Below, piece by piece: positions 42,621 to 59,527 of a DNA stretch of 64,000 nucleotides. The notes under the pieces are model-generated. The model had not been told where the DNA came from. It did no database searches and was given only the letters and a program-made list of their open reading frames with translations. The stretch's first letter is position 1. Every line of letters begins with the position of its first letter. Source of the stretch: Streptomyces sp. NBC_01476 (lineage in GTDB: Bacteria; Actinomycetota; Actinomycetes; Streptomycetales; Streptomycetaceae); the NCBI RefSeq assembly GCF_036227265.1, contig NZ_CP109446.1:2059501-2123500 (forward strand), given 5' to 3'. The position numbers were made by a program, and so were the translations under genes.

Positions 42621-43991
42621 CTACTCGTCGTCGGGGTCGGCGAGCGCGACCCGCACGTGGTCGTTGAAGTCCCGTACGGCAGAGTTGGATGCTTGCGGCG
42701 AGACCTGGCGCTGGAAGTCGGAGACGTAGCGCCGGAAGCGGGCCGACTGCACGGACTCGCCTTCCCGCACGGCAGTGGTCGCGGTGGCGACGGCGGCCCC
42801 CACGTCGCCGTGCAGGTAGTGGCTCTGGGCGAGAACCATCCGGCAGAAGGCAAGGGTCCGGGCGTACTGGGGTTCGGTCTTGCCGACCGCGAGTTCCGCG
42901 AACCGCAGGGACTCGGCGGGGCGTTGGAGATCGCGGAAGCAGTGCGAGAACTCGCCGATCAGCTCCGCTTCGTCGAAGTAGGCAAGCCATTCCGGGTCCG
43001 TGGCGGAGTCCGCCCGCTCGAAGTGGCGTTCGGCCTCGTTCAGGGCCCGCGAGGCCCCCACATGATCGTGCGCGTTCGACAGCGCGCGGGCTTCGTGGGC
43101 GGCGAACATGGCCTGGGCGCGCGGCGTGGTCCTGCCCCGGCCGCCTTCCACGGCCGCCCGCGCCAGCCGCGCGGCGCGCGGCACATCCCCCAAGTAGTTC
43201 GCCTGGTGGCTCATGTTGGCAAGGAGGGCCGCACCCATCATCCGGTCGTCGGTGATCTGCGTGAGGCGAAGCGCGGCCAGGAGATAGCGGTTGGCCAGAT
43301 GGTGGTTTCCGACGTCGTACGCCGTCCACGCCAGGACTTCGCCCATCTCGGCCGCTGCGGTGAAGAGCGCCTGGCCGACCTTCTCCGAGTAGCCGGCGCT
43401 CAGCAGCGGCAGAACCTCGTGGCGGAAGTAGTGCCGCAGCGCCGCGTGTCCGTGTCCACCGCCGAAGAGGAAGTCCAGCCGCATGAACATCGCGTTGGCG
43501 GTCCGCACCGCCGCGACATCCCGCATCCCGATCCGCCGGGGCGCTCCCCGGTCGCTGGGCAGACCGTCCGGACGCGCGACGAGCCAGGACAGAACGGCCG
43601 AGCTGACCTCGTTGTCATGCAGCAGCTCGTCGGTGAACGGCTCGTCCTCGGGACGCAGTTGGGTCAGCCCGTCCAGGACGCCGAGTGCCTCGGCGAGGGA
43701 TGCCGCGTAACTCGTGCCGATCGGCGAGGGGTTGATCGTGACCCCGGAGAAGCCGAGGTCGGATGCGGTGACCCGGCGGCCTAACTTCGCGCTGAGGGCT
43801 TCGGCGAGGTAGGCCGCGTTGTCCGCTTGGATGCCGGCGCCGTCGAGCCAGCGCTGTACGGACACATGGGTGGTGCCGACGCGGACGCCGTGCCGTAACG
43901 CGACATCGCGCACACGGCGGGCCAGGCCCTTGTTGGATGCCCCGGCGTCGGCCATCAGCGCGGCGAGACGGTGATTGGGCTCTCGGTTCAT
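42621..43991 (-). CDS. XRE-type regulator with helical repeats
   Basis: A 456-residue cytoplasmic protein. The first 80 residues contain a helix-turn-helix (ASNKGLARRVRDVALRHGVRVGTTHVSVQRWLDGAGIQADNAAYLAEALSAKLG). The remainder is a set of TPR-like helices (GDVPRAARLARAAVEGG, ALNEAERHFERADSATDPEWLAYFDEAELIGEF). This two-part layout is common in Streptomyces cluster-linked regulators that sit next to HATPase genes, as here. It probably controls the lanthipeptide genes and itself through the palindrome at 44013-44036. A GTG at 44012 is an alternative start. Confidence 0.8.
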   Translation of the reverse strand: MNREPNHRLAALMADAGASNKGLARRVRDVALRHGVRVGTTHVSVQRWLDGAGIQADNAAYLAEALSAKLGRRVTASDLGFSGVTINPSPIGTSYAASLAEALGVLDGLTQLRPEDEPFTDELLHDNEVSSAVLSWLVARPDGLPSDRGAPRRIGMRDVAAVRTANAMFMRLDFLFGGGHGHAALRHYFRHEVLPLLSAGYSEKVGQALFTAAAEMGEVLAWTAYDVGNHHLANRYLLAALRLTQITDDRMMGAALLANMSHQANYLGDVPRAARLARAAVEGGRGRTTPRAQAMFAAHEARALSNAHDHVGASRALNEAERHFERADSATDPEWLAYFDEAELIGEFSHCFRDLQRPAESLRFAELAVGKTEPQYARTLAFCRMVLAQSHYLHGDVGAAVATATTAVREGESVQSARFRRYVSDFQRQVSPQASNSAVRDFNDHVRVALADPDDE

Positions 43992-44012
43992 ACTCCCCCT
44001 GCCGTCGGTCAC

Positions 44013-44036
44013 TGACAGTAAGTGGCAATCCTGTCA
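44013..44036. promoter_or_regulatory. Inverted repeat upstream of the XRE regulator
   Basis: TGACAG (44013-44018) and CTGTCA (44031-44036) with a 12-nt spacer, placed 22 bp before the regulator start in the divergent region with the HATPase gene. Size and position suit an operator for an HTH dimer. Confidence 0.5.
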
Positions 44037-44270
44037 CCCTCTGGTCTCTCCAGGCAGGGGGTTCATGAGCGAACCCCCTCGACGTGCGGCGAACCTCCCG
44101 TGCACACGAACTCCCTCGTGAACTCTGCCGTCGCCCCTTGATGAGCCGTTGACTTGCGGACACACCCGCCGGAGCAGTCGGCACGGGCTTGACCCGCTGC
44201 TGGTTCCGCTACGTGCAACCGCGTGGTCGATACGTCCCCCGGGTGCCTGTCACAGCAAGGAGGTGAAGCG

Positions 44271-44795
44271 ATGGTTTCGGGAGCGGTGGATCTCCGCAGC
44301 CGGCTGGACCTGGCGTGCGAGCCCGGTGCCATTCGGCATGCCCGATCCCACGCCCGCGATGTCCTCAGGAAGTGGAGTGTGCCCGCCGAGGTGTTGTTCG
44401 ACGCCCTCACCATCGTGGCGGAACTCGCGACCAACGCGGTCCGGCACGGGGGAATCGAGCCGGGTCCGCGTGCCGCGGAAGGGGATGCCACGATCTCGCC
44501 CGTCTGTGCCTTGGACCTGCGCGTTCACAACGACCGCCTCTACGTGGCCATGTACGACGAGAGTCGGCGGGCCCCGGTCCTCCAACCGCCGTCCGACGAC
44601 GCGGAGAACGGCCGAGGGCTGCGGCTCGTCGCCGGCCTGAGCGACGGTGTGTGGGGCTACGCCTACACCACAGACCGCCCCGGGAAGCTGGTCTGGGCGA
44701 GCCTGCCCTTCCCGGTGTCGGGCAAGCTACCCGAGCCATCGCCCGTTGGCCGAACCTCCCCCGGGCGGTATCGGCCGACTCCCAGTACCAGTTGA
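44271..44795 (+). CDS. ATP-binding protein (RsbW-like HATPase)
   Basis: A 174-residue single-domain GHKL ATPase. AAGGAGGT lies 6 nt before the ATG. The N-box is LTIVAELATNAVRHGG and the glycine box is ENGRGLRLVAGL, followed by WGYAYTTDRPGKLVWASLPF. Such proteins are anti-sigma-factor-like or regulatory kinases and are abundant in Streptomyces, often beside helical-repeat XRE regulators. It is transcribed away from that regulator. The target protein is not known. Confidence 0.85.
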   Translation: MVSGAVDLRSRLDLACEPGAIRHARSHARDVLRKWSVPAEVLFDALTIVAELATNAVRHGGIEPGPRAAEGDATISPVCALDLRVHNDRLYVAMYDESRRAPVLQPPSDDAENGRGLRLVAGLSDGVWGYAYTTDRPGKLVWASLPFPVSGKLPEPSPVGRTSPGRYRPTPSTS

Positions 44796-44915
44796 CGCCG
44801 CAGCCGGCTTCCACACTGGGCAAGCGACGACGCAACCGCCACAGAACGCATCCATACAGAAAAGCCACCGCCATGACGTTGTTCCCCCATTTGCGGCGAG
44901 ACCGCGCGACTCCCG

Positions 44916-45233
44916 GTGTTCCTCATCCAGCCGGCCTTCCGCCTCGCAGCAGCGTGCGGGACGCCGGACGACGCCGACGTGGAGCGGGACTTACGGGGCC
45001 ACTTCCAAGTTCACGGCGCCGAGGCTCACTTCGCACACGTACTGAATTTGCCCGGCGAGTCCACCGGTGCACTGTGGGCCCACTGGGCCGACGGCGCCAA
45101 GCCCACCACCCTTGACGTACTTCTGGACTGCACGTCAGTCGAACCCGAAACACGCGATCCATGTTGTGAGTTCGTCGATCACCCTGGGGCGCACAGCTCC
45201 CGCCTCACAGCCGCCGAGACTCATTCCTCCTGA
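44916..45233 (+). CDS. Small hypothetical protein with a C-terminal Cys-His motif
   Basis: A possible 105-residue protein starting at a GTG (VFLIQPAFRLAAACGTPDDADVERDL by sequence). The C-terminal part DPCCEFVDHPGAHS has adjacent cysteines and two histidines that could bind metal. No clear ribosome site is present, and an ATG at 44873 lies in another frame, so either the start is not obvious or the gene is damaged. I do not recognise the family. It lies between the HATPase and the DUF6907-like gene in the same direction. Confidence 0.45.
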   Translation: MFLIQPAFRLAAACGTPDDADVERDLRGHFQVHGAEAHFAHVLNLPGESTGALWAHWADGAKPTTLDVLLDCTSVEPETRDPCCEFVDHPGAHSSRLTAAETHSS

Positions 45234-45368
45234 ATCCGATCCTCGAGCGGCACCCGCCGACCACGCGCCGCACCGTCCCTTGGCTGGTGACAGCAGGTAC
45301 TGATCATTTCAGTGCAATGCGTCAAGAAATCCTTTCCCATTACCACTCCCGAAAAAGAGGAACACCTG

Positions 45369-45923
45369 ATGACCACCGCCTCAATAGGTGCGAGGCCCAC
45401 CCCCATCGAGGAGCCCACTCAGCAACCGGCGGCCGACAAAGCCGCCTTTCCAAGCCGGACCTGGTCCATCAACACCACGGTCGGAATCACCCTCACCGGC
45501 TACCTGCCACCCTGGGCCGAAGGGGACCCCAGCGCATCGGACGTCCCCCTGGAAAAGCTTTCCGTCGAGTTGATCGACCTGTCGCACTGGATGCCCTTCG
45601 ACGGACAGCCGATGCGCATCCACTACCCCTCCTATGCGGACGGTAACGGCAAGGCAGGTGAGAGTGAGGAGATCGTCTTCAGCGGCAACATCACCTGCTA
45701 TCCATACAGCGAGAACCTGCGCGAACGGACTCCGTTCGCCAACGTCCGCGTCGTCGACGATTTTTGGATGAACAACCTCATCCCCGACGAAGTCGCTGGC
45801 CTCGCCGCCAAGCTCCGCACCCAAGCCGATTACCTCGAAAAGAGCGTCGTCCCGACTCTCGAAGCAGCCCGCAGCGACTGGGAAGTTCACCAGATTTCGC
45901 GTGCGAACCACATTCTCCCGTAG
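45369..45923 (+). CDS. DUF6907-like protein
   Basis: A 184-residue soluble protein. AGAGGAA lies 6 nt before the ATG. The first 35 residues are variable, then a conserved-looking core follows: TWSINTTVGITLTGYLPPWAEGDPSASDVPLEKLSVELIDLSHW, later GNITCYPYSENLRERTPFANVRVVDDFWMN and AAKLRTQADYLEKSVVPTLEAARSDWE. From memory this matches a Streptomyces family labelled DUF6907, common on mobile or accessory regions. Its function is unknown. It precedes the lanthipeptide precursor by 288 bp, a stretch in which I see no other gene. Confidence 0.65.
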   Translation: MTTASIGARPTPIEEPTQQPAADKAAFPSRTWSINTTVGITLTGYLPPWAEGDPSASDVPLEKLSVELIDLSHWMPFDGQPMRIHYPSYADGNGKAGESEEIVFSGNITCYPYSENLRERTPFANVRVVDDFWMNNLIPDEVAGLAAKLRTQADYLEKSVVPTLEAARSDWEVHQISRANHILP

Positions 45924-46211
45924 GCGCCAGAGAGAAGATCGCAAAAAGCGGTGAGCAGGTACGATCTTCGGCTGACGACCACCGATCTAAGTTTCCGGCC
46001 GATCGAAATTCTTCCGCCAAGCGATCGGCCCGGACCAGAGGAAGGTTTCCGGCTCGGGAACAAGCGGCCCTGCGCAGAATCAAGTTGTGGGGCACCGCCT
46101 TTGGGCCGGTGGCCGGGGGCGCTTCCGCTGCGTGGCTGTCTCAATCCGCGACGCGTAAGGGCGTTTTCTGGCAGCACCACCCGTAATTCACACCCATGAA
46201 GAGGAGTTGGC

Positions 46212-46382
46212 ATGAGTCCCACCATCGCGCGCACCACGAAGGCGAACACGGGCACCACCGCAGTGGACGGCTTCGAGCTGGACGTCACGCTGGTCGAGGT
46301 CGGCGATGTCGCCGGCCTGGTCAGTCTGACGGACGACGGCTGCGGCGAGACCTGCGGCGCCTGCACCACCAACGTGGCCTGA
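46212..46382 (+). CDS. FxLD-family lanthipeptide precursor
   Basis: A 56-residue precursor peptide. GAGGAG lies just before the ATG. The leader contains F21-E-L-D24, the FxLD motif that names the family, followed by VTLVEVGDVAGLV. The core has Ser38, Thr40, Thr47, Thr52 and Thr53 as dehydration candidates, and Cys44, Cys48 and Cys51 as thioether partners, within the family-typical pattern TDDGCGETCGACTT. Up to three rings are possible. Asp42-Gly43 is a chemically favoured site for aspartimide formation by the isoaspartyl-type methyltransferase at 50838-52916. LanB and LanC genes follow directly. The leader cleavage site is not determined. Confidence 0.9.
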   Translation: MSPTIARTTKANTGTTAVDGFELDVTLVEVGDVAGLVSLTDDGCGETCGACTTNVA

Positions 46383-46467
46383 CCCCAGGCGCACGGAACC
46401 CGGGCCGGTGTCTTCGTGACCCGAAGTGCGAAGTCACCGGCCGCCCATCTTGGAGCAGGAGGTTGTG

Positions 46468-49400
46468 ATGGCTTCGAGCACCGCGTTCCGTGCCGGTAGG
46501 ACCGCGCTCGTCCGTGCGGTCGCCCGGCCGGAACTCCCTGTCCCCCCGGTCCCTGATCTCGATGACCCTTCCCCTCATGGCGCGGCTGTCCGGCTGGCGT
46601 GGTTGCGAGAGGTCTGGTCCGAGGGGGACGTTGCCGAGGCGCTGGAGCACGCCAGCCCGGTCCTCGCCTCCCAGGTGCGGGCCTTATGTTCCTCAGGTGC
46701 TCCAGCAGATCGTGATGTGCGGCGCGCCGCCGCCTCGGTGACCCGCTACGTGTTGCGTGCCGAGCAGCGGGCAACTCCCTTCGGTCTGTTCGCCGGCGTT
46801 GCGTCGGCCACCATCGGACCAGGGGCCGGGACGACGTGGGGTTCGGACCATAGGGTCATCGCTCGGGCGAGCGCGGAATGGCTGACGGCCGTCATCGAAC
46901 GGCTGGAGTCCTGCCCCGAGCTGTTGGAGCGCCTTCCGGTGGTCCTCAACAACACCGCACAGGTACGCGGCGGACAGCTGGTCGTGCCGTACAACTCCGA
47001 CACACACCGCGACCAGCGGCGCGCGGTCGAGACATCCATCGTGGTCACCGAACCGGTGCGGGCGATCCTCGACGCAGCCCGCGAACCCATCTGCGGGGGC
47101 GTCCTCGCCGACAAGCTGGCCGCGGGCTTCCCCGGGGCAGGTCCGGGAAGGGCGCAGCGGCTCGTGCGGGGGCTGATCCACAACCAGGTGTTGATCACCA
47201 GCCTGCACGCACCGAGCACCGAGACCGATGCCCTGGACTACCTGCTGGGCCGGCTCGACGCAGTCAACGCCGACACGGTCGCTCCGGTCGCCGATACCGT
47301 CCGCGAACTACGCGCCGTACAAGCCGACCTGCGAGGCTGCGACTCCCCCGCCGGCCGGGCCCGCGCCGCCTCGCGGATGCGGGCTGTGGTCCCGGGGCTG
47401 CGCCGCCATCCCCTCGCGCTCGACCTACGCCTGGACGCCGAGATCACGCTGTCGCACCAGGTCGCCCGCGAGGTCGAGCGCGCCGCCGAAGTCCTGACCC
47501 GGATTAGCGCCCTGCCGTACGGGACCGCAGCGTGGAAGGCGTACCAACGAAGGTTCTACGAGCGGTACGGCATCGGCACGATGGTGCCGCTCACCGAGGT
47601 CGTCGCCGATAGCGGCACCGGCTTCCCCGACGGGTATCCGGGCGCCCCCGCCGACGGCCGACGCTCCCGCGTTTCGGTGCGGGACGACGCCCTGGTGCGG
47701 CTGGCGCAGGCAGCCGTCCTCGACGGCCGCGACGAAGTGGTCCTCACCAATGAGCTGATCGCCGCGATGGACCTGGGGCCCGAACGTCCCAGGGTGCCGC
47801 CGCACCTGGAAGTCAGCGTTCGGGTGCACGCTGCCAGCGCCGGGGAGCTGCGACGCGGTCGGTTCCGGTTGGAAGTGGCGAGCGTGTCCCGCGGCGTCGG
47901 CGTCACCATCGGCCGGTTCCTCAGTGTGCTGGCCCCCGAGGACCGCGAACGGCTGGCAGCAGAGTTGGCCGCCCTCCCGACCGCCGACGCCGGCACCATC
48001 GTTGCCCAGTTGTCCTTCCCGCCGCTGCACCCCGCCAGCGCACACGTCACACGCGCTCCGCAGGTGCTGCCCACCGTGATCAGCGTCCAGGAGCACCGCG
48101 CCACGAGCGGCGACGTGCTCGATCCGGCCGATCTGGCAGTGGCGTGCGACGGCCGGCGCATGTACCTGGCCGCGCCCTCGTGCGGGCAGCGGATCGAGGC
48201 CGTAGGCATGCACGCGCTGAACCTCAAGGAGCACACACCGCCGCTGGTCCGGTTCCTCACCGAGCTGTCCCGCGCCCAGTGCGCGCAGGTCGCCTTGTTC
48301 GACTGGGGTGCCGCGAACGCGATGCCGTTCCTGCCGCGGCTGCGCTACGGCCGTACGGTGCTCGCCCCGGCCCGGTGGCGGCTGGAGGCCGCCGAACTGC
48401 CCGGCCGCGACCGCCCACAATCCCTGTGGAATACCGCCCTTGAGGACTGGAGGACCCGGCGGCGGATGCCGCACCGGGTCCACCTGGCCGAAGGCGATCA
48501 ACGCCTCCTCCTCGACCTCGACCATGCCGCGCACCGAACCCTGCTGCGCCAACACCTGAACCGCACCCCCTTGGCGGTGCTCGTGGAAGCGCCGGACGCC
48601 GACGCGTACGGCTGGTGCGACGGCCGTGCGCACGAGGTCGTCGTGCCGCTCAAAGCGGCCCGGCTCCCGACCTGGCCCGCGCTGCCGACCCCCACCCCGG
48701 CCCGTACCTTCTCTCCGGAACAGATCCAGACGCCCGGTCTCTCCTCGCTTCTGCTCGCCACGCTCTACGGCGACCTACGCCGCCAGGACGTTCTCCTCGC
48801 TAAGCACATCCCCGACCTGCTGGACCGGCTCGGTGGGCCGCCCTGGTGGTTCATCCGCTTCCGCGACCCCGCCCACCACCTGCGGCTGCGTATCGCGCTG
48901 CCCGATCCCGACGCCTTCGCCGAGACCGCCCGTACCGTCGGCGCCTGGGCCGACGAACTGCGCGCCGCCGGACTGCTGTCGGACCTGCGCTTCCCCACCT
49001 CCTACCGCGAGATGGGCCGCTGGGGATCGGGTTCGGCCTGGGACGCCGCCGAGGAGGTGTTCCGTGCCGACTCGCGGGCCGTCGTCACCCAACTCGCCCA
49101 GCGCCAACGACCGCCGCAGCGCGCGCTGGTGGCCGCACACAGCATCGGCATCGCCACCGCGTTCCTCGGCAGCACCGAGGCCGCGATGCGCTGGCTGACC
49201 GACCATATTCCCTCCACCGCGCCCGCACCGGTTCCGCGCCCACAGTTCGCCGAGACCGTACGACTGGCCGACCCGTCCAACGACTGGGCGGCGCTGCGCG
49301 ACGTAACCGGTGGGCAGGCCATCGTGAAAGCGTGGGCCGACCGGGACGCGGCGCTTGCCGCCTACCGACCCCATCTCCCCGGCCCTGACACCCAGGGCAT

Positions 49401-49539
49401 CGGCCTGGACGACGTCCTCTCCTCACTCCTGCACGTCCACTTCGTACGGCACGTCGCGGTCGACTTCCCCGAGGAAGAGGTCTGCCTCTACCTCACCCGC
49501 GCCGCAGCCCTGGCCTGGCTCTCCCGGAGGGCACGGTGA
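46468..49539 (+). CDS. Lantibiotic dehydratase (LanB)
   Basis: A 1023-residue class I dehydratase that uses glutamyl-tRNA to dehydrate Ser/Thr of the precursor. AGGAGG lies 5 nt before the ATG. The N-terminal glutamylation domain shows YVLRAEQRATPFGLFAGVASA, containing the R-x-TPFG-F motif, and runs to about residue 740. The C-terminal elimination domain (about 750-1023) contains WWFIRFRDPAHHLRLRI and YREMGRWGSGSAWDAAEEVF, similar to thiopeptide-type SpaB-C. Both halves are on one chain, unlike split LanBs. The stop overlaps the LanC start (GTGA). It lies 85 bp downstream of the precursor gene. Confidence 0.95.
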   Translation: MASSTAFRAGRTALVRAVARPELPVPPVPDLDDPSPHGAAVRLAWLREVWSEGDVAEALEHASPVLASQVRALCSSGAPADRDVRRAAASVTRYVLRAEQRATPFGLFAGVASATIGPGAGTTWGSDHRVIARASAEWLTAVIERLESCPELLERLPVVLNNTAQVRGGQLVVPYNSDTHRDQRRAVETSIVVTEPVRAILDAAREPICGGVLADKLAAGFPGAGPGRAQRLVRGLIHNQVLITSLHAPSTETDALDYLLGRLDAVNADTVAPVADTVRELRAVQADLRGCDSPAGRARAASRMRAVVPGLRRHPLALDLRLDAEITLSHQVAREVERAAEVLTRISALPYGTAAWKAYQRRFYERYGIGTMVPLTEVVADSGTGFPDGYPGAPADGRRSRVSVRDDALVRLAQAAVLDGRDEVVLTNELIAAMDLGPERPRVPPHLEVSVRVHAASAGELRRGRFRLEVASVSRGVGVTIGRFLSVLAPEDRERLAAELAALPTADAGTIVAQLSFPPLHPASAHVTRAPQVLPTVISVQEHRATSGDVLDPADLAVACDGRRMYLAAPSCGQRIEAVGMHALNLKEHTPPLVRFLTELSRAQCAQVALFDWGAANAMPFLPRLRYGRTVLAPARWRLEAAELPGRDRPQSLWNTALEDWRTRRRMPHRVHLAEGDQRLLLDLDHAAHRTLLRQHLNRTPLAVLVEAPDADAYGWCDGRAHEVVVPLKAARLPTWPALPTPTPARTFSPEQIQTPGLSSLLLATLYGDLRRQDVLLAKHIPDLLDRLGGPPWWFIRFRDPAHHLRLRIALPDPDAFAETARTVGAWADELRAAGLLSDLRFPTSYREMGRWGSGSAWDAAEEVFRADSRAVVTQLAQRQRPPQRALVAAHSIGIATAFLGSTEAAMRWLTDHIPSTAPAPVPRPQFAETVRLADPSNDWAALRDVTGGQAIVKAWADRDAALAAYRPHLPGPDTQGIGLDDVLSSLLHVHFVRHVAVDFPEEEVCLYLTRAAALAWLSRRAR

Positions 49540-50810
49540 CCGATCCCCACACGCTGAAGGTGGCGGACGCCATCGCCGACCTCCTGGCCGACCCCGACAC
49601 CGCCCCGGTGAGTCCGCGCACCACAACCACCGACCGGCAGCAGCTCGCGTACGGGCCCCTGGGGATCGCGCTGCTGCACATCGAACGCGCCGGAGCCGAT
49701 CTGGGACCATGGCAGCGCGCCCACGCCTGGCTCGCCGCCACCACCCGGCAGCCGTTCACCAGCGGACCCGACAGCCATCCCTTCTACGGCGCCCCGGCCC
49801 TTGCCCACGCCGTGGCCTGCGCAGCCGAGCACCAACCGGTCCCCTACCAGCGAGCCCTTCTCCACCTCGACGCGCAGATCGACCGAGACGTACGCCGGCG
49901 CCTCGACGCCGTGCATCGCCGCGTCGACGCCGGCGGCATGCCTGAGCTGGCCGAGTTCGACGCGATCCGAGGACTCGCCGGCTACGGCGCCTACCTGCTG
50001 CACCGCGACCCGCTCAGCTCCACCCTGAACAGGCTCCTCGACTACTGCGTCCGCCTCACCGCGCCGGTCGCCCACGACGGCGAGACTCTGCCTGGTTGGT
50101 GGACAGCCTCCGGGCCTTCCGGCCGCCCGGACAAGCGGTTCCCCGGCGGGCACGCCAACAACGGTATGGCGCACGGCATCGGCGGAGTGCTCGCACTGCT
50201 GGCCCTCGCCGCCCGGCACGGCAACACCGTCGACGGCCACCACGCCGCCCTCCGAACAATCCTGGCGTGGCTCGACCGGTGGCAGGAAGAGACCGGCCCC
50301 GGCGTTGTCTGGCCCTATTGGGTCACCCGCGCCGAACTCCGCGAAGGGCATCTCGCCCCCTCTGCGCCGCGCCGTCCCTCATGGTGCTACGGCACAGCCG
50401 GCCTCGCCCGTGCCCAGCAACTCGGCGCCCTCGCCCTCGGCGACACTCGCCGTCAAGTCAAGGCCGAGGCGGCGCTCGTGGCCGCCCTCACCGACTTCGC
50501 GCAGCTCAAGGCCACCACGGACAACGGCCTGTGCCACGGTTACGCCGGGCTCGCCCACGTCGCGGCCCGCGCTGCCGCTCACGCACACCCTTCGACGACT
50601 GGGCAGCTTCGCGTCGCAATTCCACCGCTCCTGCGCGCGGTGTGCCAGCCGGGCACCGACTCCGCCACCGTCGCCGCGGCCCTGGTGCAGGACGAGGTAG
50701 CCGGACCGGGGTTCCTCGATGGCGCCGCAGGTATCGCTCTGGCACTCCTCGCGCCCGCCACCGAGACATCGCCCATATCCGCCTGGGACTCCTGCCTGCT
50801 CATCGCCTGA
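49536..50810 (+). CDS. Lanthionine cyclase (LanC)
   Basis: A 424-residue zinc-dependent cyclase that adds Cys thiols to dehydroamino acids. The zinc ligands are visible: Cys284 in SWCYGTAGL and Cys333-His334 in NGLCHGYAGL. GHANNGMAHGIGGVLALL carries the conserved histidine region. The alpha-toroid repeat pattern (G-x-x-G-x-x-x-A/L) is evident throughout. The start codon overlaps the LanB stop, so the two enzymes are coupled in translation. The methyltransferase gene follows after 27 bp. Confidence 0.94.
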   Translation: MTDPHTLKVADAIADLLADPDTAPVSPRTTTTDRQQLAYGPLGIALLHIERAGADLGPWQRAHAWLAATTRQPFTSGPDSHPFYGAPALAHAVACAAEHQPVPYQRALLHLDAQIDRDVRRRLDAVHRRVDAGGMPELAEFDAIRGLAGYGAYLLHRDPLSSTLNRLLDYCVRLTAPVAHDGETLPGWWTASGPSGRPDKRFPGGHANNGMAHGIGGVLALLALAARHGNTVDGHHAALRTILAWLDRWQEETGPGVVWPYWVTRAELREGHLAPSAPRRPSWCYGTAGLARAQQLGALALGDTRRQVKAEAALVAALTDFAQLKATTDNGLCHGYAGLAHVAARAAAHAHPSTTGQLRVAIPPLLRAVCQPGTDSATVAAALVQDEVAGPGFLDGAAGIALALLAPATETSPISAWDSCLLIA

Positions 50811-50837
50811 CCCCGCCGATCGAAAGAACCCCTGCTC

Positions 50838-52916
50838 ATGAACTCGGACCGCTGGCAGCAGCACAACGTCGTCTTCACCGACCGCGAGAGCGGCAAGCGC
50901 GCCATCACCGAACGCCTCGGCCCCGCCCTCCTCGCGGCGGAAGAAGCCGGGCAGCTCGACGGCTGGTGGTTCATGAACAAGCAGCCCTGGCCGCTGCGTT
51001 ACCGCGCCGCGCAACCCTCATCGCTGGTCCGCGCGGTCCTGAGCGAACTCGTCGACAACGGCACGGTGAAGTCTTGGCTGCCCGGCATCTACGAGCCGGA
51101 ATCCACCGCCTTCGGTGGTGCCCTTGCTATGGACGCCGCCCACGACCTGTTCCACAAGGACAGCCGGCACCTGCTCACTTACGAGCCCGGCCCCGGACAC
51201 GTGGGCCGCCGAGAGACCGCCGTCCTCCTGCTCAGCGGCATGATGCGTGCCGCCAACCTGGACTGGTTCGAGCAGGGCGACGTCTGGGCGAAGGCCGCCG
51301 CGCTGCGGCCGGCCACGGACTTCCCGGTGGCGCGGGCCGCCGCCCTGACACCGGCGATGCGCACGCTGATGACCGTTGATGCCCGCAGCCTGTGCCGTCC
51401 GGACGGCCCGCTCGACGGGCACGCCGAGTGGGTGGCTGCCTTCGAACGGGCCGGGACGACGCTTGCCTACTTCGCCAAGGGGAGCGGGCTCTCGCGCGGT
51501 CTGCGCGCCGTCATCGCCCACCACGTGATCTTCCACGCCAACCGCGCCGGTCTCCTCCCAGAGGACCAAAGCGCCCTGTTCACCACCGCACGAGAGGCAG
51601 TCATGGGATCGAGTGACAACACCGCGTCGTCCATCGGGGCCGTGCCGGACACCATTAGCGTCGGGGCGGTGACCACCGACACGATCGCTCACAACGGGGT
51701 CGAGGCCGCTCGGCTCCGCAACGCCCTGGTCGACCAGATCCGCGAGTACGGATACGCCCGCACGCCCGCCGTCGAAGCAGCGCTGCGCGCCGTCCCCCGC
51801 CACCTGTTTGTACCCGATACACCGCTCGAAGTCGCCTACGCCAACGCGACGGTCGGCATCAAGCAGGACACCGACGGCACCGTGATCTCCTGCGCCTCCC
51901 AGCCCAGCGTCGTCGCCGCCATGCTGGATCAGTTGGAGGCCCAGCCCGGCGACCGGATTCTCGAACTCGGCGCCGGAACCGGATACAACGCCGCACTGCT
52001 TGCTCGTCTCGTTGGCGACGCCGGTTTCGTCACCACCGTCGACGTCGACGGGGACCTCGTGGAAGGCGCCCGCGCGCACCTCGCCACCGCCGGCTTCACC
52101 AACGTCGACGTACTGACCGGCGACGGCGCACTCGGCCATACCGAAGGCGCCCCCTACGACAGGATCATCGCCACCGTCGGCGCACACGGCGTCCCCCACG
52201 CCTGGCTCGACCAACTCGCACCCGGCGGACGCCTCGTCGTCCCCCAACGACTCAAGGGCAGCGTGTCCCGCTCCATCGCCTACGAGCAGCACGACGGCCG
52301 CTGGACCAGCGTCAGCAGCAAGATGAACACCTTCATGCCGCTCCGACGCGGCATCGCCGACGACGACCGCCGCGTCATCCCCCTCAGCACCGACGGCACC
52401 GTACGGCTCCAGGCTCCCGCCGGCCAGCCGATCGACGCCGACGCCCTGGCCGGAGTCCTGGACCTGCCGCGCACCGAGGAATGGACCGGCATGACGGTCC
52501 GGGCCATGGAAAATCCGGAGTGGATGGAGCTGTTCGTCGCCTGCTCCCTGCCCAGCGGCCTGATCCGGATGCTGTTCCCGAAGGAAGCCAAGGGCACGCT
52601 GCTCACCGAGGACCCCTATCCGTCCTCCACTGCAGCCGTTCACGGCGGCGCCGTCACCTATCTCGCCCGCCGCGTGTCGGAGAAGAAGACCCCTGAGGGC
52701 GAAAAGCTCTGGGAGTTCGGCGTCATCGGCCACGGCCCCGGCAGCGACGAACTGGCCGCGCAGGTGGCCGACATGATCCACACCTGGGACCGCGACTACC
52801 GGGGCCGTGAGGCGTCCTTCGAGATCCAGCATCTCGACGCCCCCGCCATCGAGCAGCGGCCCGGCCTCTTCGCCATCGACACCCCGCTGAACCGCATCGT
52901 CGCCGACTGGCAGTAG
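50838..52916 (+). CDS. FxLD-system methyltransferase fused to a LanB-C-like domain
   Basis: A 692-residue two-part protein. Residues 1-260 resemble the thiopeptide-type/SpaB-C elimination domain (SDRWQQHNVVFTDRESGKRA, GWWFMNKQPWPLRYR, DLFHKDSRHLLTY). Residues about 290-540 are a protein-L-isoaspartate O-methyltransferase: AVPRHLFVPDTPLEVAYANATVGIKQD, the SAM motif LELGAGTGYNAALLARL at 375-391, then YDRIIATVGAHGVPHAWL. The last 150 residues are a family-specific extension. Related lanthipeptide enzymes (OlvS type) methylate Asp so that a succinimide or isoaspartate forms. The natural partner is Asp42-Gly43 of the precursor. The first domain may recognise the leader. Confidence 0.9.
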   Translation: MNSDRWQQHNVVFTDRESGKRAITERLGPALLAAEEAGQLDGWWFMNKQPWPLRYRAAQPSSLVRAVLSELVDNGTVKSWLPGIYEPESTAFGGALAMDAAHDLFHKDSRHLLTYEPGPGHVGRRETAVLLLSGMMRAANLDWFEQGDVWAKAAALRPATDFPVARAAALTPAMRTLMTVDARSLCRPDGPLDGHAEWVAAFERAGTTLAYFAKGSGLSRGLRAVIAHHVIFHANRAGLLPEDQSALFTTAREAVMGSSDNTASSIGAVPDTISVGAVTTDTIAHNGVEAARLRNALVDQIREYGYARTPAVEAALRAVPRHLFVPDTPLEVAYANATVGIKQDTDGTVISCASQPSVVAAMLDQLEAQPGDRILELGAGTGYNAALLARLVGDAGFVTTVDVDGDLVEGARAHLATAGFTNVDVLTGDGALGHTEGAPYDRIIATVGAHGVPHAWLDQLAPGGRLVVPQRLKGSVSRSIAYEQHDGRWTSVSSKMNTFMPLRRGIADDDRRVIPLSTDGTVRLQAPAGQPIDADALAGVLDLPRTEEWTGMTVRAMENPEWMELFVACSLPSGLIRMLFPKEAKGTLLTEDPYPSSTAAVHGGAVTYLARRVSEKKTPEGEKLWEFGVIGHGPGSDELAAQVADMIHTWDRDYRGREASFEIQHLDAPAIEQRPGLFAIDTPLNRIVADWQ

Positions 52917-52934
52917 AACCAACGACCGGATGGA

Positions 52935-52969
52935 GGTGGAGCCCGCAGGCGCAGCCGACGGGCTCCACC
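52935..52969 (+). terminator. Hairpin after the methyltransferase gene
   Basis: GGTGGAGCCCG (52935-52945) and its complement (52959-52969) form an 11-bp stem with a 13-nt loop, 19 bp after the stop. It may terminate or attenuate transcription into the helical-repeat gene. Confidence 0.6.
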
Positions 52970-53003
52970 GGTCCCGACCCGCATCGTCACCCCCGGAGAG
53001 CAC

Positions 53004-54128
53004 ATGGACCCGCACGGCCCAATAGCCCGGCGCTTCCCGCTCGTCGCCCGATTCCGTCCCGCCTGCCTGCCGCTGCCCGACCGCGTGCGGGCCCTGGTCG
53101 ACCTGGCTGACCGGGCCGCGGAACAACTCGACCAGGGCTTGGCCTCCACCATCTTCAACCAGGCTGCCCTCCTCGCTTCCGACATCGGCCTCCCCGACCT
53201 CGCCCGGTCCATGTGCCACCGTCACGCCCAGGCGTATCTGACCGCAGGCCCGCTGCCCGCCATGAGCGCCATCCGCGGCCTCGAACCCCTGATCAACCTC
53301 GCCCGCTTACAAATCCGCGCCGGCCACCCCGACGACGCCCGCCAACGCCTCCTCGACCTCTACGAAGCCGTCGGGGCCGGCACCCCCGCCACCTTCGAGG
53401 GCATCACCGTCCCAGCCGACCTCACCCGCACCGACGAAGACCGCCACGAAGTCCACGCCTGGCTATGGCGCGTCCTCCTCGCCGACGGCACCCGCACTCT
53501 CACCACCACCGGCCGCTGGCAGGAAGCCCTCACCCACATCGAGCGACACCGAGGCGTGGGCACCCGCATGCTCGACGGCCGCCAAGTCGCCGTCGTCGCA
53601 GCCCTCACCGAAGGCAACACCGACCGATCTGCGGAACTACTCAACACCACAGCGCCAGGAGAACCGTGGGAACAGGCCGTCACCGCCTGCCTGACCACCC
53701 TGTGCCACCGCGACGCGGGGCAAGACATCGACAACCACCTGTCCGACCTGGCGAGCATGTACCTGACCCACGAAGCCAAGCCAGCGCTCACGGTCTTCGA
53801 CATCCGCCTCGGCCTCACCGCCCTCGACGCGGTCGCGTCCATCGAGCATCCCGCAGCGCGCAGACTCGTCGAAGACATAGCCCGCCGAACCGCGGATGCC
53901 CGTGACGGCTACGCAGCCCGCGAGTTCGTCACGCATCCCCAGGCCGCCTCGCTCGCTACGGCACGGCAGACCCAGGACTGCCGTGAACTGATCGAAGCCA
54001 GCGCTCTCGGAGCCGCTGCCCTCCCGGGCAGCCTCCACGCCAGCCTTTCGGCTGCGCTGGACACCGCCGGAGAAGTGCTCACACGAGCAGTCTCACCTGC
54101 CAGGAGGACGATATGGCCATCAGGGTGA
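53004..54128 (+). CDS. Helical-repeat protein of the FxLD cluster
   Basis: A 374-residue soluble protein with no named family that I recognise. It begins MDPHGPIARRFPLVARFRPA, with GGAG 5 nt before the ATG. The body is almost all alpha-helical with TPR-like spacing (QLDQGLASTIFNQAALLASDIGLPDLARSMCHRHAQAYLT; RLQIRAGHPDDARQRLLDLYEA; WQEALTHIERHR). Such proteins often follow the methyltransferase in FxLD-type clusters in my recollection; a role as regulator or scaffold is possible. Its end overlaps the ribosome site and start of the next small reading frame. Confidence 0.75.
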   Translation: MDPHGPIARRFPLVARFRPACLPLPDRVRALVDLADRAAEQLDQGLASTIFNQAALLASDIGLPDLARSMCHRHAQAYLTAGPLPAMSAIRGLEPLINLARLQIRAGHPDDARQRLLDLYEAVGAGTPATFEGITVPADLTRTDEDRHEVHAWLWRVLLADGTRTLTTTGRWQEALTHIERHRGVGTRMLDGRQVAVVAALTEGNTDRSAELLNTTAPGEPWEQAVTACLTTLCHRDAGQDIDNHLSDLASMYLTHEAKPALTVFDIRLGLTALDAVASIEHPAARRLVEDIARRTADARDGYAAREFVTHPQAASLATARQTQDCRELIEASALGAAALPGSLHASLSAALDTAGEVLTRAVSPARRTIWPSG

Positions 54129-54438
54129 GCTGACGTGGGATAAGAGCACCACCCTCGGCGAGGTCGAGCGGTTCATCGCTCAGGCCAAGTCCGCCGGTGC
54201 TGACGCCGGCACCGTGACCGAGGACATCACCCACGACCAAGACCCCGATCTGACGCTCGGGCGGCAGATCGAGGTTGAAGGACGAACCGGCGCCCACCGG
54301 CCAGCGAGGTGGCGATGCCGCACCGCCGTATGTGGAACCTGCACAGCCTGCTGGAGCAGATCACCGGCGGAGACGGCGACGTACGGGCTCTGCAGGACGA
54401 CATGCGCCAGATGGACACAAAGTTGTCGGATGCGCTGA
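54113..54438 (+). pseudogene. Small hypothetical gene interrupted by a frameshift
   Basis: AGGAGG (54102-54107) and ATG at 54113 begin a frame that stops after six codons. Shifting frame inside the GGG run at 54123-54125 gives MAIR-GELTWDKSTTLGEVERFIAQAK, then GADAGTVTEDITHDQDPDLTL and IEVEG, which is protein-like. One missing G would explain it. The normal end is unclear; the restored frame stays open to 54438 but loses protein character after about 54282. It could be real decay or a base-call error. Confidence 0.5.
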
Positions 54439-54497
54439 CGAAGCATGTCGGCTGGCCCGCCCTGGCCGAGCCCCGAGGGGGCTCAATCACGACTTGA
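54315..54497 (+). CDS. Small hypothetical protein
   Basis: A possible 60-residue protein, MPHRRMWNLHSLLEQITGGD followed by DVRALQDDMRQMDTKLSDALTKHVGWPA, with GAGGTG before the ATG. It is mostly amphipathic helix, a possible coiled coil. It overlaps the decayed preceding frame. The family is unknown and it may be a fragment of a larger gene. Confidence 0.4.
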   Translation: MPHRRMWNLHSLLEQITGGDGDVRALQDDMRQMDTKLSDALTKHVGWPALAEPRGGSITT

Positions 54498-54674
54498 GCG
54501 GCAGGCCACAGCCACAGGCATACGACAGGTCGGTGTACCCGCCACGCAAGGCACCCGCATCAATCATGGACTGTGGTTGCAGCAACAAGAACCTCGGCGT
54601 CCTGGGCCTCGACACCGTCACCGGCAGTGTCACCGCGTCCCGGGTGATCGCGAGGATCGACCACTCCCACCCTG

Positions 54675-55028
54675 GTGGCCGACGGACTGGTGCAGGCGGT
54701 GGCCACTGCGGCACTGGCCGTCCTCGGCGACAACCGGGGCTGGCTGCGTCTGCTGCTGACCGCGACCTTCGTCGGCGTCGGCTTCATAGTGACCACCACC
54801 TCCGGCCTGTCCGACGCCGAGCAGGGCATGGCCAATGGTGTGGCCACCATGAGCCAGCAGGTCGGTATCACCATGGGTACGCCGGTCGTGGGCGCCGTCG
54901 TCACGGCGCACGCCGGCACCTCGGCCGACCGGAACGTGATTCTCGACGGCATCAGCACCGCCGTCCTGCTCGACGCGGCCCTCGTCCTCCCCGCCGCGCT
55001 CTTCCTGCGCCCCCGGCCCCCGGTCTGA
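54675..55028 (+). pseudogene. C-terminal remnant of an MFS drug exporter (DHA2 type)
   Basis: One frame encodes about 115 residues of the end of an EmrB/QacA-like MFS exporter. The segment GLSDAEQGMANGVATMSQQVGITMGTPVVGAVVTA is the characteristic 13th-helix region of 14-helix exporters, and the last helix is LLDAALVLPAALFLRPRP. The N-terminal ten or so helices are missing. The break lies at the island/chromosome junction near glnA2, so this is either the remains of a chromosomal gene cut by the island or a lost exporter of the cluster. Confidence 0.75.
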
Positions 55029-55030
55029 CC

Positions 55031-55052
55031 CCGGGCCGGGCCCCCGGCCCGG
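55031..55052. terminator. Hairpin between the MFS remnant and glnA2
   Basis: CCGGGCCGGG (55031-55040) and CCCGGCCCGG (55043-55052) form a 10-bp stem with a very short loop, 4 bp after the glnA2 stop. It could end transcription from both sides. Confidence 0.65.
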
Positions 55053-55055
55053 CGC

Positions 55056-56417
55056 CTACAGGTTCGGGAGGTTCTTGCGGAGTTCGAAGGCGGTGACCTC
55101 GCTGCGGTACTCCTCCCACTCCTGCTTCTTGTTGCGGAGGAAGAAGTCGAAGACGTGCTCGCCCAGGGTCTCGGCGACGAGTTCGCTGCGCTGCATGAGG
55201 TCGATCGCCTCGCCGAGGTTCTGCGGGAGGGGCTGGATGCCCAGGGCGCGGCGTTCCGCGTCGGTGAGGGCCCAGACGTCGTCGTCGGCGCCCGGGGGGA
55301 GCTCGTAGCCGTCCTGGATGCCCTTCATGCCGGCGGCGAGCAGGACGGCGTAGGCGAGGTAGGGGTTGCAGCCGGAGTCCAGGGAGCGGACCTCGACGCG
55401 GGTGGAGCCGGTCTTGCCGGGCTTGTACATCGGGACCCGGATGAGGGCCGAGCGGTTGTTGTGGCCCCAGCAGATGTACGAGGGGGCCTCGCCGCCGGCG
55501 CCCGCGGTGCGCTGGGAGCCGCCCCAGATCCGCTTGTAGGAGTTCACCCACTGGTTGGTGACCGCGGAGATCTCACCCGCGTGCCGCAGCAGACCCGCGA
55601 TGAAGGAGCGCCCCACCTTGGAGAGCTGGAACTCCGAGCCGGACTCGTAGAACGCGTTCCGGTCCCCCTCGAAGAGCGAGAGGTGGGAGTGCATCCCGGA
55701 GCCGGGGTGCTCGGAGAACGGCTTGGGCATGAACGTCGCGTGCACGCCCTGCTCCAGCGCGACCTGCTTCATCACCAGCCGGAAGGTCATGATGTTGTCG
55801 GCGGTGGAGAGCGCGTCAGCGTACCGCAGATCGATCTCCTGCTGGCCGGGGGCGCCCTCGTGGTGCGAGAACTCCACCGAGATGCCCATGGACTCCAGCA
55901 TGGTGATGGCGGTCCGGCGGAAGTCCATGCCGACGTTCTGCGGGGTGTGGTCGAAGTAGCCGGAGTTGTCCGCCGGCGTCGGCCGGGCGCCGTCCAGCGG
56001 CTTGTCCTTCAGGAGGTAGAACTCGATCTCGGGGTGCGTGTAGAAGGTGAAGCCGAGGTCGGAGGTCTTGGCCAGCGCGCGCTTGAGGACGTAGCGCGGG
56101 TCGGCGTACGACGGGGAGCCGTCGGGCATCAGGATGTCGCAGAACATCCGGGCGGTGCCGGGGGCCTCGGCACGCCAGGGCAGCACCTGGAAGGTCGCGG
56201 GGTCCGGCTTGGCGATCATGTCCGACTCGTAGACCCGGGCGAAGCCCTCGATGGCGGAGCCGTCGAAGCCGATGCCCTCGTCGAACGCCTGCTCAAGCTC
56301 GGCGGGGGCCACCGCGACCGACTTCAGGTAGCCGAGTACGTCGGTGAACCACAGCCGAACGAAGCGGATGTCCCGCTCCTCCAGGGTGCGGAGGACGAAC
56401 TCCTGCTGCTTATCCAT
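55056..56417 (-). CDS. glnA2: Glutamine synthetase-like GlnA2 (probable gamma-glutamylpolyamine synthetase)
   Basis: A 453-residue type I glutamine synthetase homologue. The start MDKQQEFVLRTLEERDIRFVR is placed 9 nt after AAGGA; an ATG 6 bases earlier is too close to that site. Catalytic motifs are FDGSAIEGFARVYESDM, SHHEGAPGQQEIDLRYADALS and PKPFSEHPGSGMHSHLS. The position of the GlnA adenylylation tyrosine is Trp382 (DDVWALTDAERR), so GlnE should not act on it. The S. coelicolor counterpart (SCO2241) is reported to glutamylate polyamines rather than assimilate ammonium; that function is inferred here from close resemblance and position. Confidence 0.92.
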   Translation of the reverse strand: MDKQQEFVLRTLEERDIRFVRLWFTDVLGYLKSVAVAPAELEQAFDEGIGFDGSAIEGFARVYESDMIAKPDPATFQVLPWRAEAPGTARMFCDILMPDGSPSYADPRYVLKRALAKTSDLGFTFYTHPEIEFYLLKDKPLDGARPTPADNSGYFDHTPQNVGMDFRRTAITMLESMGISVEFSHHEGAPGQQEIDLRYADALSTADNIMTFRLVMKQVALEQGVHATFMPKPFSEHPGSGMHSHLSLFEGDRNAFYESGSEFQLSKVGRSFIAGLLRHAGEISAVTNQWVNSYKRIWGGSQRTAGAGGEAPSYICWGHNNRSALIRVPMYKPGKTGSTRVEVRSLDSGCNPYLAYAVLLAAGMKGIQDGYELPPGADDDVWALTDAERRALGIQPLPQNLGEAIDLMQRSELVAETLGEHVFDFFLRNKKQEWEEYRSEVTAFELRKNLPNL

Positions 56418-56764
56418 AACCATCCATCCTTGCCGGTCAGGCCATCCCCCGGCGCGGGCGGCAACGGGGATCAGGAGCATTGCACCACACCGTTTCGGGT
56501 GCGTTGCAGGTACCACTCACCCCCCATAGTGCACGCCGGTGCGACTCAGCCGAAGCTGTCGATGGGAGCGATCTTCCGGCGGACCTTCCCGCGGCCGTCC
56601 CCGGCACTCTCCCGGCCGCTCGCCGGCCGCCGCGCCACCGGCCCGCCCTTCCCGCCGCACCGTGCCGGACGCCGGACGGCGGACGGCGGCTCCCCGGAGG
56701 GAACCGCCGTCCGCTGCGCCATCGGCGTTACGGGGCGGGGACCGCAGCGGCCCCCACGCCCGGC
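56418..56764. other. 347-bp gap with a GH87 terminator
   Basis: This holds the leader and promoter of glnA2 (near 56430-56530) and then non-coding sequence. A GlnR-like half pair, GTTTC-N6-GTTGC on this strand (56492-56507), is noted but weak. The hairpin at 56679-56714 is listed separately. No gene is visible. Confidence 0.5.
56679..56714 (-). terminator. Terminator after the GH87 gene
   Basis: GCGGACGGCGG (56679-56689) pairs with CCGCCGTCCGC (56704-56714) around a 14-nt loop, about 50 bp beyond the GH87 stop. Confidence 0.7.
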
Positions 56765-59527
56765 CTACGAGGCGTAGACGCCCACCTCGGAGAGCTGTCC
56801 GGCCGGCCAGCCGGTGTTCCCGGTGATGGTGAGCCGGACGTAGCGCTGCGACGACGGCGTGAAGGAGATCGCCACGTCATTGCCGCTGCTGGGGTTGAAG
56901 GTGTAGCCGGCTGACGCCTTCAGCGTGGTGTAGCTGGTGTTGTCGGTGGAGCCGAGGACGCTGAGGGTTTCGGTGCGGGTGCCCCAGCCCGCCGGCAGCT
57001 TGAGGTCCAGGCGGCCGATGGTGTGGGTGGCGCCGAGGTCGACGGTGAGGGACTGGGGGAAGGCGTTGTTGGTGCTTTCCCAGTAGGTGGCGGTGTTGCC
57101 GTCGACGGCGTTGCCCGCGGTGTAGATGTCGGAGTGGCCGGTGTCGGTGGCGGGGTGGCCCTGGGCGAGGTTGGGGTTGCCGGCCGGCGGGGTGGTCGGC
57201 GGGGTGGTCGTGGGCGGGGGTGTGGTGGGCGGCGGGGTGGTGGTGCCGTCGGGTGCGTAGATCTGGAATTCGGAGATCTGGCCGGCGGTCCAGCCGGTGT
57301 TGGCGGTGATGTTGAGGCGGACGTAGCGGGTGTTGGCGGTGGTGAAGGTCACGGTGGCGGTGTTGCCGGTGGCGGGGTTGAAGGTGACGCCGCCGGAGGG
57401 CTTGAGGGTGGTCCAGGTGGCGTTGTCGGTGGAGCCGAGGACACTGAGGGTTTCGGTGCGGGTGGCCCAGTCACTGGAGGGCGGGAGTTTGAGGGTGACC
57501 TTCCCGACCGGGGTGGCGGTGCCGAGGTCGACGGTGAGGGTCTGCGGGAACGCCCCGCTGGCTGATTCCCAGTAGGTGGCGGCGTTGCCGTCCACCGCGT
57601 TGGCCGGGGTGTAGCTCTGCACCGAGGACGACGCCGACGCCGGACGGCCCTGCGCCAGATTCCCACCCGCCGGCGGCGTGGTCGTGCCCCCGGTGGCACC
57701 GCTGACAGTGCTGCCGCCGCTGACGGTACCGCCCGAGGTGGAGCCGGAGCCCGGCTGCGGCCAGGTGCTGCAGTCGGCCCAGTTGCCGTCCCAACCGCTG
57801 TTGCCCGCGCCCTTGTTGATGGTGAAGGCGGGCAGGTTCGCCGGGTAGGAGCAGTTGTAGACGCCGGTCGCTCCGGTGCCGGTGGCGGTCACATTGCTGA
57901 AGCTCGCCGAACCGGGGGTCTCGGCCTGCACCACGACGGTGCCGGTGCCGGAGGCGGTCGCGCCGTTCACCGTGACGCCGTTGATGGTGTAGCCGTGGCC
58001 GCCGCCCGAGACGAACTCGAAGTCGCTGTACGGGCTGTCGATGAACGCGGTGTTGCTGATCTGGATGCTGTTGTTGATCGCGTAGTCATAGCTGTCGACG
58101 CGCAACGCACCCATCGGGTGGCCCCAGTTGGGGTTGAGCGCACCGGTACGGATCAGGGTGTTGCCGGAGACCGTGACGGTACCGGAGAGCGGGTTGAACG
58201 GCTGCAGGAACGCCTGGTTGGAGATCGCGATGCCGCCGCCGAGCGCGTTGGTGTCGGCGATGACGTTGTTGGAGACGGTGTTGTCGCTGCCGCCGTAGAT
58301 GGCGATGCCGTTGGCCAGGTTCGGCTGCACGATGGTGTTGTTGGCGAAGGTGTTGCCCGTGTCGGGCGAGCCCAGCGACCACATGGCGAGCGAGTCGTCA
58401 CCCTGGTTGCGCAGGAAGTTGTTCTTCACCTGTACGCCCTGGGCGCTGCCGTCCAGGTTGAGGCCGTCGGCGGTGGTGCCGATGATCCGGTTGTTCTGCA
58501 CCAGCAGGTTGGTGTTGTTGCCGGTCAGCCAGAGGCCGCACTTCTCCCGCTGGATCCACATGCCCTGGACCACGGAGTTGGGGCCGAGCGAGCCGGTGAC
58601 GAAGCTGTCCGGCGAGTTGTCGTTGCGGACACTCACCTCACCGATGACCGCGAAGTCGTACAGCTTGGTGTTGCCGGTGGCGCTGGTCTGGTCGATGAAG
58701 TGCGAACTGTGCACCACCGAGTACCAGTTGCCGGCGCCGCGCAGCGTGACGTTGTCGACCGGCAGGTTGGAGGTGATCTTGAAGTTCCCGGACGGGATCC
58801 AGACCTCCTTGCCCTGGGCCTTGGCGTCGGAGATGGCCTGCCGGAACGCCTGGGTGGAGTCGCCGCTGCCGCTGGCGTCGGCGCCGTCGGTGACCACCGA
58901 GATGGAGTTCGCGGGCTGCCCGGCGGCGGCCGCCACCTGCTCGAAGTCGGCCACGTCGATGGTGGCGGAGCCGGTGTCGCCGGAATCCAGCTGGAGCCTG
59001 ACCTTGCCGCCCGCAGCCACATTCTGGCCGAGTTGTATACGGGAGTCGTCGAAGAAGTGGTGCGTCTTCGAGCCGGCGATCCAGCTGGTGTCCAGGTAGC
59101 TGTACTGGGCGGTGACGGCGAGTTTCTGGCTGATCTTGGTCCCGTTGACGTAGACCGAGACGGTGCCGGAGGCGCCGCGGGGCAGGTTGTACGCCACGTC
59201 CACCGCGTTGGCGGCCTTGGTGAGGGTGAACTCGACGTACTTTCCCTGGCCGTTCAGGGTGACCGCACGGCGGCCCGATGCCTCGGAGGCCACCGTCGAC
59301 TGGGTGTAATCCGGGCCGGTGACCGAGCCGTTGGTGGCCGCGGCCTCGGCCTCGTACTCGGTGAACGGCACGGTGGCGCCACCGCTCACATCGAACGGCG
59401 AGACGGTCGATACCGTGGGGGCGGCATGGGCTGTCTGTGTGGTGATCGCCAGGGCGAGTCCGCCGGCCGCGACCGCGGCCGCGGTGGCCGTAGCGAGCCA
59501 GACCGAGGAGCGACGTCTGGTGTCCAT
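56765..59527 (-). CDS. Secreted GH87 alpha-1,3-glucanase (mycodextranase type) with discoidin modules
   Basis: A 920-residue exported enzyme. Residues 1-36 are a signal peptide (RRRSSVWLATATAAAVAAGGLALAI...AHAAPT). A CBM35/CBM6-like domain covers about 45-175. The GH87 beta-helix covers about 185-600 and contains D354 in TADGLNLDG and D377-D378 in NQGDDS. Their spacing of 23 and 24 residues equals that of the catalytic Asp triad of the GH87 enzyme Agl-FH1 as I remember it (1067, 1090, 1091). Two F5/8 type C modules (about 640-770 and 795-920), joined by a Pro/Thr linker, would bind insoluble alpha-1,3-glucan. It is divergent from a LacI repressor and an oligosaccharide importer. Confidence 0.88.
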   Translation of the reverse strand: MDTRRRSSVWLATATAAAVAAGGLALAITTQTAHAAPTVSTVSPFDVSGGATVPFTEYEAEAAATNGSVTGPDYTQSTVASEASGRRAVTLNGQGKYVEFTLTKAANAVDVAYNLPRGASGTVSVYVNGTKISQKLAVTAQYSYLDTSWIAGSKTHHFFDDSRIQLGQNVAAGGKVRLQLDSGDTGSATIDVADFEQVAAAAGQPANSISVVTDGADASGSGDSTQAFRQAISDAKAQGKEVWIPSGNFKITSNLPVDNVTLRGAGNWYSVVHSSHFIDQTSATGNTKLYDFAVIGEVSVRNDNSPDSFVTGSLGPNSVVQGMWIQREKCGLWLTGNNTNLLVQNNRIIGTTADGLNLDGSAQGVQVKNNFLRNQGDDSLAMWSLGSPDTGNTFANNTIVQPNLANGIAIYGGSDNTVSNNVIADTNALGGGIAISNQAFLQPFNPLSGTVTVSGNTLIRTGALNPNWGHPMGALRVDSYDYAINNSIQISNTAFIDSPYSDFEFVSGGGHGYTINGVTVNGATASGTGTVVVQAETPGSASFSNVTATGTGATGVYNCSYPANLPAFTINKGAGNSGWDGNWADCSTWPQPGSGSTSGGTVSGGSTVSGATGGTTTPPAGGNLAQGRPASASSSVQSYTPANAVDGNAATYWESASGAFPQTLTVDLGTATPVGKVTLKLPPSSDWATRTETLSVLGSTDNATWTTLKPSGGVTFNPATGNTATVTFTTANTRYVRLNITANTGWTAGQISEFQIYAPDGTTTPPPTTPPPTTTPPTTPPAGNPNLAQGHPATDTGHSDIYTAGNAVDGNTATYWESTNNAFPQSLTVDLGATHTIGRLDLKLPAGWGTRTETLSVLGSTDNTSYTTLKASAGYTFNPSSGNDVAISFTPSSQRYVRLTITGNTGWPAGQLSEVGVYAS

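Follow-up and report, generated by a model that had tools for sequence, protein, structure and literature searches.

A probable coi-type class I lanthipeptide cluster with a glutamyl lyase-methyltransferase fusion between glnE and glutamine synthetase in Streptomyces sp. NBC_01476

The locus described here lies in the window, the whole stretch of 64,000 nucleotides that was analysed from Streptomyces sp. NBC_01476, and it raises the question of which lanthipeptide pathway is encoded and which rings its product would carry. The original prediction placed a complete FxLD-type cluster at 46212-54128 in the glnE-glnA2 interval, with LanB, LanC and methyltransferase genes following a precursor gene on one strand. 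All of these genes were recovered and passed the curated models; they share the plus strand, with small gaps or overlaps between them. The cluster does lie between glnE and a type I glutamine synthetase gene, both on the minus strand. The span was corrected in one respect, as its end at 54128 takes in a fifth gene that had not been named. The features are:

34554-37787, minus strand: glnE, the left border, outside the pathway (PF03710, two matches)
46212-46382, plus strand: LanA precursor of 56 aa (TIGR04363)
46468-49539, plus strand: LanB dehydratase with glutamyl-transferase and anti-type glutamyl-lyase domains (PF04738, PF14028)
49536-50810, plus strand: LanC cyclase (PF05147, 125 bits)
50838-52916, plus strand: CoiSA-like fusion of 692 aa, a syn-type glutamyl lyase (residues ~6-255) joined to a PIMT-like O-methyltransferase with a C-terminal domain (residues 290-691)
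53004-54128, plus strand: gene 5, a conserved helical/TPR-like repeat protein and candidate CoiH counterpart, which follows the fusion gene in relatives
55056-56516, minus strand: type I glutamine synthetase, the right border, outside the pathway (PF00120; TIGR00653, 441 bits against a cut-off of 429)

The precursor and LanB genes are separated by 85 nt, LanB and LanC overlap by 4 nt, and gaps of 27 nt and 87 nt precede the methyltransferase gene and gene 5, respectively. Promoter and terminator scans gave nothing above shuffles, and a tRNA search of the 64-kb window found none. The glutamine synthetase gene is adjoined by a gene for a large alpha-1,3-glucanase-type protein with two F5/8 type C domains (56765-60037, minus strand).

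The precursor open reading frame is preceded by the ribosome site GAGGAG and encodes the sequence MSPTIARTTKANTGTTAVDGFELDVTLVEVGDVAGLVSLTDDGCGETCGACTTNVA, with the predicted F-E-L-D leader motif at residues 21-24. The proposed check against the FxLD family profile was passed, with TIGR04363 giving 49.1 bits against a curated cut-off of 30 (E 4.2e-13) and covering residues 19-53 and all 37 model positions. A search of PDB sequences with the precursor returned only chance matches to armadillo repeats. The calculated monoisotopic mass of the unmodified peptide is 5546.60 Da. The core reads S38 L T40 D D42 G C44 G E T47 C48 G A C51 T52 T53 NVA, in which T40 to C44 (T-D-D-G-C) forms the TxDGC motif of the lanthimiditides, with a PIMT encoded in the same cluster; the chemistry associated with this motif and the PIMT has been described (PMC10787088, PMC13001092).

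LanB most likely starts at ATG 46468 and not at GTG 46426, where the longest open reading frame begins, because a strong ribosome site, GGAGCAGGAGG, precedes the former and the latter has none comparable. The protein matched PF04738 with 706 bits and PF14028 with 125 bits. Its lyase domain contains the equivalents of all four NisB residues R784, R786, R826 and H961, so the idea that the lyase of this LanB is dead was rejected. The R826 and H961 equivalents were kept in all 73 full-length LanBs from the window and 80 fetched loci. In LanC the expected metal-binding and active-site motifs (HGIGG, WCYG and CHG) are present.

The methyltransferase had been predicted to be of the isoaspartyl type. 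That assignment stood, as residues 290-691 matched TIGR04364 ('methyltransferase, FxLD system') with 455.8 bits against an equivalog-domain cut-off of 320, but the protein proved to be a fusion whose N-terminal part, about residues 6-255, is a second glutamyl lyase (TIGR03891/PF14028), with TIGR03891 itself matching residues 14-255. Residue signatures that separate anti- from syn-glutamyl lyases have been published (PMC9011353, PMC9486935), and the fused lyase has a lysine, K48, for the usual aromatic residue, an alanine at the R826 equivalent and no H961 equivalent. The R826 and H961 equivalents are both absent in 77 of 77 methyltransferase-fused lyases from the window and the 80 loci, and the catalytic-lysine motif WWFMNKQPWPLR, or a near variant, is found in 73 of the 77. 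In CoiSA the catalytic lysine is required, as judged from K46A (PMC9486935, PMC9011353), while the arginine R51 is non-essential; the position aligned with R51 is proline in the window-type fusions. No match to the fused lyase was found among PDB sequences, and the fusion protein gave an AlphaFold model of low confidence (pLDDT 64), which was left out of the analysis. Three fused lyases (L061, L063 and L065) have an arginine at the R826 position together with the syn-type lysine and fit neither lyase class cleanly; their loci encode short precursors with two cysteines only.

In nearly every complete relative, gene 5 comes after the fusion gene. Its AlphaFold model, built with 31 homologues, had a mean pLDDT of 93.1 and was almost entirely helical. 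Pfam gave weak TPR matches only, and a Foldseek search with the model returned nothing at E<=0.001, only generic helical repeats and no specific PDB relative. The protein is a candidate counterpart of CoiH, to which it is likened by position and description only, and one might guess that it serves as a scaffold or chaperone of the enzyme complex.

When the cluster was compared with known systems the closest was coi from S. coelicolor A3(2) (CoiA1/B/C/SA and CoiH; PMC9486935, PMC9011353), which likewise comprises a full-length LanB, LanC, a syn-lyase/PIMT fusion and an additional unknown protein. The two share an equivalent T-x-D-x-C ring and T-C pair, and neither contains a protease gene; coi has three precursor genes and the window has one. 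The SapT cluster (PMC9011353) contains a lyase, SptBb, of the same syn type as the fused lyase, but its LanB is split (SptBa/SptBb), whereas that of the window is full length, and no methyltransferase fusion is described for it. The lanthimiditides, or class I families I 1-4 (Walker et al. 2020; PMC7268733, PMC13001092, PMC10787088), are actinobacterial class I systems with a PIMT and the TxDGC motif; no feature separates the window cluster from them, and it would be one more member. Given the glutamyl-lyase/PIMT fusion and the conserved gene 5 behind it, the locus is assigned with high confidence as a complete coi-type class I lanthipeptide cluster, in which a LanB anti-lyase and a fused syn-lyase would together support the chemistry proposed below. 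The idea of an FxLD architecture of unknown kind was dropped, since the coi papers already describe the architecture (PMC9486935, PMC9011353).

The genes, domains, catalytic-residue patterns and conservation observed here allow a pathway to be proposed, all of its chemistry being taken by analogy from the reconstituted coi and olv pathways. LanB would glutamylate the core threonines using Glu-tRNA, and its own lyase would eliminate at T40 and T47 to give (Z)-Dhb. The architecture of coi gives the extra lyase a known role, the supply of (E)-Dhb for a D-allo-L-methyllanthionine; the fused syn-lyase may therefore act at T53. LanC would then form T40-C44, T47-C51 and a reversed C48-T53 D-allo-L-methyllanthionine. 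In the cyclised peptide the PIMT-like domain would methylate D42 within the T-x-D-G-C ring, and the methyl ester would collapse to an aspartimide and then mostly to isoAsp; OlvSA-type enzymes take the core Asp through ester and aspartimide mostly to isoAsp, only after cyclisation (PMC10787088, PMC13001092). Conservation supports D42 as this site. Leader removal and export would, at a guess, be carried out by proteins from outside the cluster.

The anti-type active site of LanB is complete, and the olv product is made without an extra lyase (PMC9486935), so that LanB could in principle perform every elimination with anti geometry, the fused domain being structural only and no allo-methyllanthionine being formed. 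The olv cluster of S. olivaceus NRRL B-3009 (OlvA/B/C/SA) resembles the window in its LanB, LanC, PIMT-like methyltransferase and conserved core Asp, but it lacks a second lyase, which is present here, and a CoiH counterpart, and its product has an extra N-terminal Lan ring. The window retains the lysine that is important in CoiSA, and the syn-type pattern of residues holds across the 77 examined fusions. Moreover, coi reached threefold dehydration and formed the D-allo-L-methyllanthionine ring only with its fused lyase, LanB and LanC alone stalling at one dehydration (PMC9486935), and sister clusters without a LanB lyase retain the fused lyase as their only one. Elimination by LanB alone is accordingly regarded as improbable, and the coi-type assignment is retained.

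The expectation of up to three thioether rings was reasonable in number, but the likeliest third ring is a reversed one joining C48 to T53 rather than one starting from S38. Position 53 is Ser or Thr in 59 of 59 relatives (position 52 in 56 of 59), whereas position 38 is Ser or Thr in 12 of 59 and Asn in 46. The search pattern behind this set itself demanded T40, D42, C44, C48 and C51, so their constancy among the 59 is no evidence; in an alignment of 19 divergent FxLD precursors T40, D42, C44 and C51 were invariant. The peptide mCoiA1 contains T43-C47, T50-C55 and C51-T57 rings, of which the last runs from an N-terminal Cys onto a C-terminal Dhb (PMC9486935, PMC9011353). The spacing of T40, C44, T47 and C48 fits that of T43, C47, T50 and C51, while C51 and T53 fall one residue earlier than C55 and T57, and the overlapping pair T47-C51 and C48-T53 would correspond to T50-C55 and C51-T57. 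Because C51 is shifted and the predicted C48-T53 ring is one residue shorter than its mCoiA1 counterpart, we can only infer the ring topology here. The presence of S38 and of three cysteines also allows products with just the two rings T40-C44 and T47-C51 and a free C48, or with S38 supplying the third ring from the N-terminal side; OlvA uses a Ser near this position for its extra Lan ring, and CoiA1 has the Ser but leaves it undehydrated (PMC9486935). The frequent Asn at position 38 and the constant Ser or Thr at position 53 make these outcomes unlikely. Conservation supports the three rings T40-C44, T47-C51 and C48-T53.

At least 595 genome-contig stretches matched window-type fusion proteins, and 573 of those listed were confirmed relatives; 80 loci were kept from the matched stretches for the counts of gene order and residues. 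The order LanB, LanC, fusion and gene 5 is identical to that of the window in 62 of the 80. The 17-residue core TDDGCGETCGACTTNVA recurs unchanged in ten of them; the DNA carries one to three silent changes in nine and is identical in the tenth. The occurrence of ten identical cores in other species indicates that the product is under strong constraint. This identity and the silent differences also weigh against the cluster being a decaying, non-functional remnant, as the missing dedicated genes for a transporter and a protease might suggest. None of the five frames is interrupted, the catalytic motifs are retained, and a missing protease is usual in coi and olv (PMC9486935), so decay appears very improbable.

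The spacing between glnE and the glutamine synthetase gene is 17.3 kb in the window (37787-55056), about 1.1-1.4 kb in five other genomes (G029, G027, G033, G009 and G012) and 40-44 kb in two (G006 and G015), and in relatives the window-type cluster also occurs at other chromosomal places (e.g. G025, G030 and G012). The interval is therefore variable within the genus, and the cluster is not tied to one chromosomal location. The product had been thought probably undescribed within a class with few characterised members. It is correct that no product has been reported from any native producer of the family (PMC9486935), but reconstitution and structural characterisation have been achieved for olv and coi (PMC9486935, PMC13001092), and ten further genomes encode an identical core. 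As the type is common in Streptomyces relatives and two sister clusters have already been reconstituted, the cluster is ordinary in kind, one more coi-type member and no new type of system. The most abundant actinobacterial class I lanthipeptide families gain with it a well-conserved member whose rings, stereochemistry and aspartimide site are exactly predicted.

The genome contains two FxLD clusters besides that of the window:

Cluster 2, L038:8402-15567, genome 2148.4-2155.6 kb: about 42 kb downstream of the window LanB
Cluster 3, L039:7416-13984, genome 6.505-6.512 Mb, minus strand

Cluster 2 encodes a separate methyltransferase, a full-length LanB and a separate syn-lyase. Both glutamate-binding arginines (R784/R786) of its LanB lyase are gone, with QYLALY in place of HLRLR. 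The same loss was seen in eight loci (L041, L043, L044, L045, L046, L047, L049 and L050), the two positions aligning as Thr/His and Ala/Tyr in L043 and L045. These LanBs keep H961 and, except in L041, R826, and a separate syn-lyase gene is always present; they possibly represent a step towards a short-LanB type.

The LanB of cluster 3 has 681 aa and stops where the lyase should start; LanC overlaps it by 4 nt and is followed by a syn-lyase/PIMT fusion and a gene 5 homologue. All five PF14028 matches in the whole genome fall within the three FxLD clusters, leaving cluster 3 with no lyase besides its fused one. Of 298 family genomes, 14, belonging to four genera, contain a short-form LanB without a lyase domain. 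The cluster 3-type loci (L074, L077, L174, L175, L177, L178 and L180-L184) encode no lyase other than the methyltransferase-fused syn type. Most short LanBs in the loci read end at the same place before LanC, and the fusion and gene 5 follow where stretch and frames allow, the frames of L176 and L185 being broken and the stretch read for L179 containing no later genes. In published descriptions, methyltransferase-fused syn-lyases occur together with a full-length dehydratase in the same cluster (PMC9486935), and 'almost all' such clusters have two elimination domains (PMC9011353); the short-LanB type is thus a small new variant or else the exception that is not listed.

We slightly favour the view that the three clusters form a graded series, in which the LanB anti-lyase is intact in the window, lacks two arginines in cluster 2 and is deleted in cluster 3, the syn-lyase being kept throughout. 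Because the only lyase of the cluster 3 type is fused to the aspartate methyltransferase, one protein would both complete dehydration and install the aspartimide. All thioethers of this type would then derive from (E)-Dhb or Dha, a class I arrangement absent from the syn-lyase survey of PMC9486935, and the stereochemical effect of anti-lyase loss would be testable across three natural pathways in one organism.

Mixed arrangements were also seen among the relatives. In Streptomyces sp. SPB162 (L078 / L132) an apparent hybrid combines a stand-alone methyltransferase, precursor, LanB and LanC of one type with a window-type fusion (77-82% identical) whose reading frame breaks off near the end. In S. 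longwoodensis (L137) a short-LanB-type precursor ending in CSTGDTCGSSCPSACTTS lies just upstream of LanB in a cluster with window-type enzymes.
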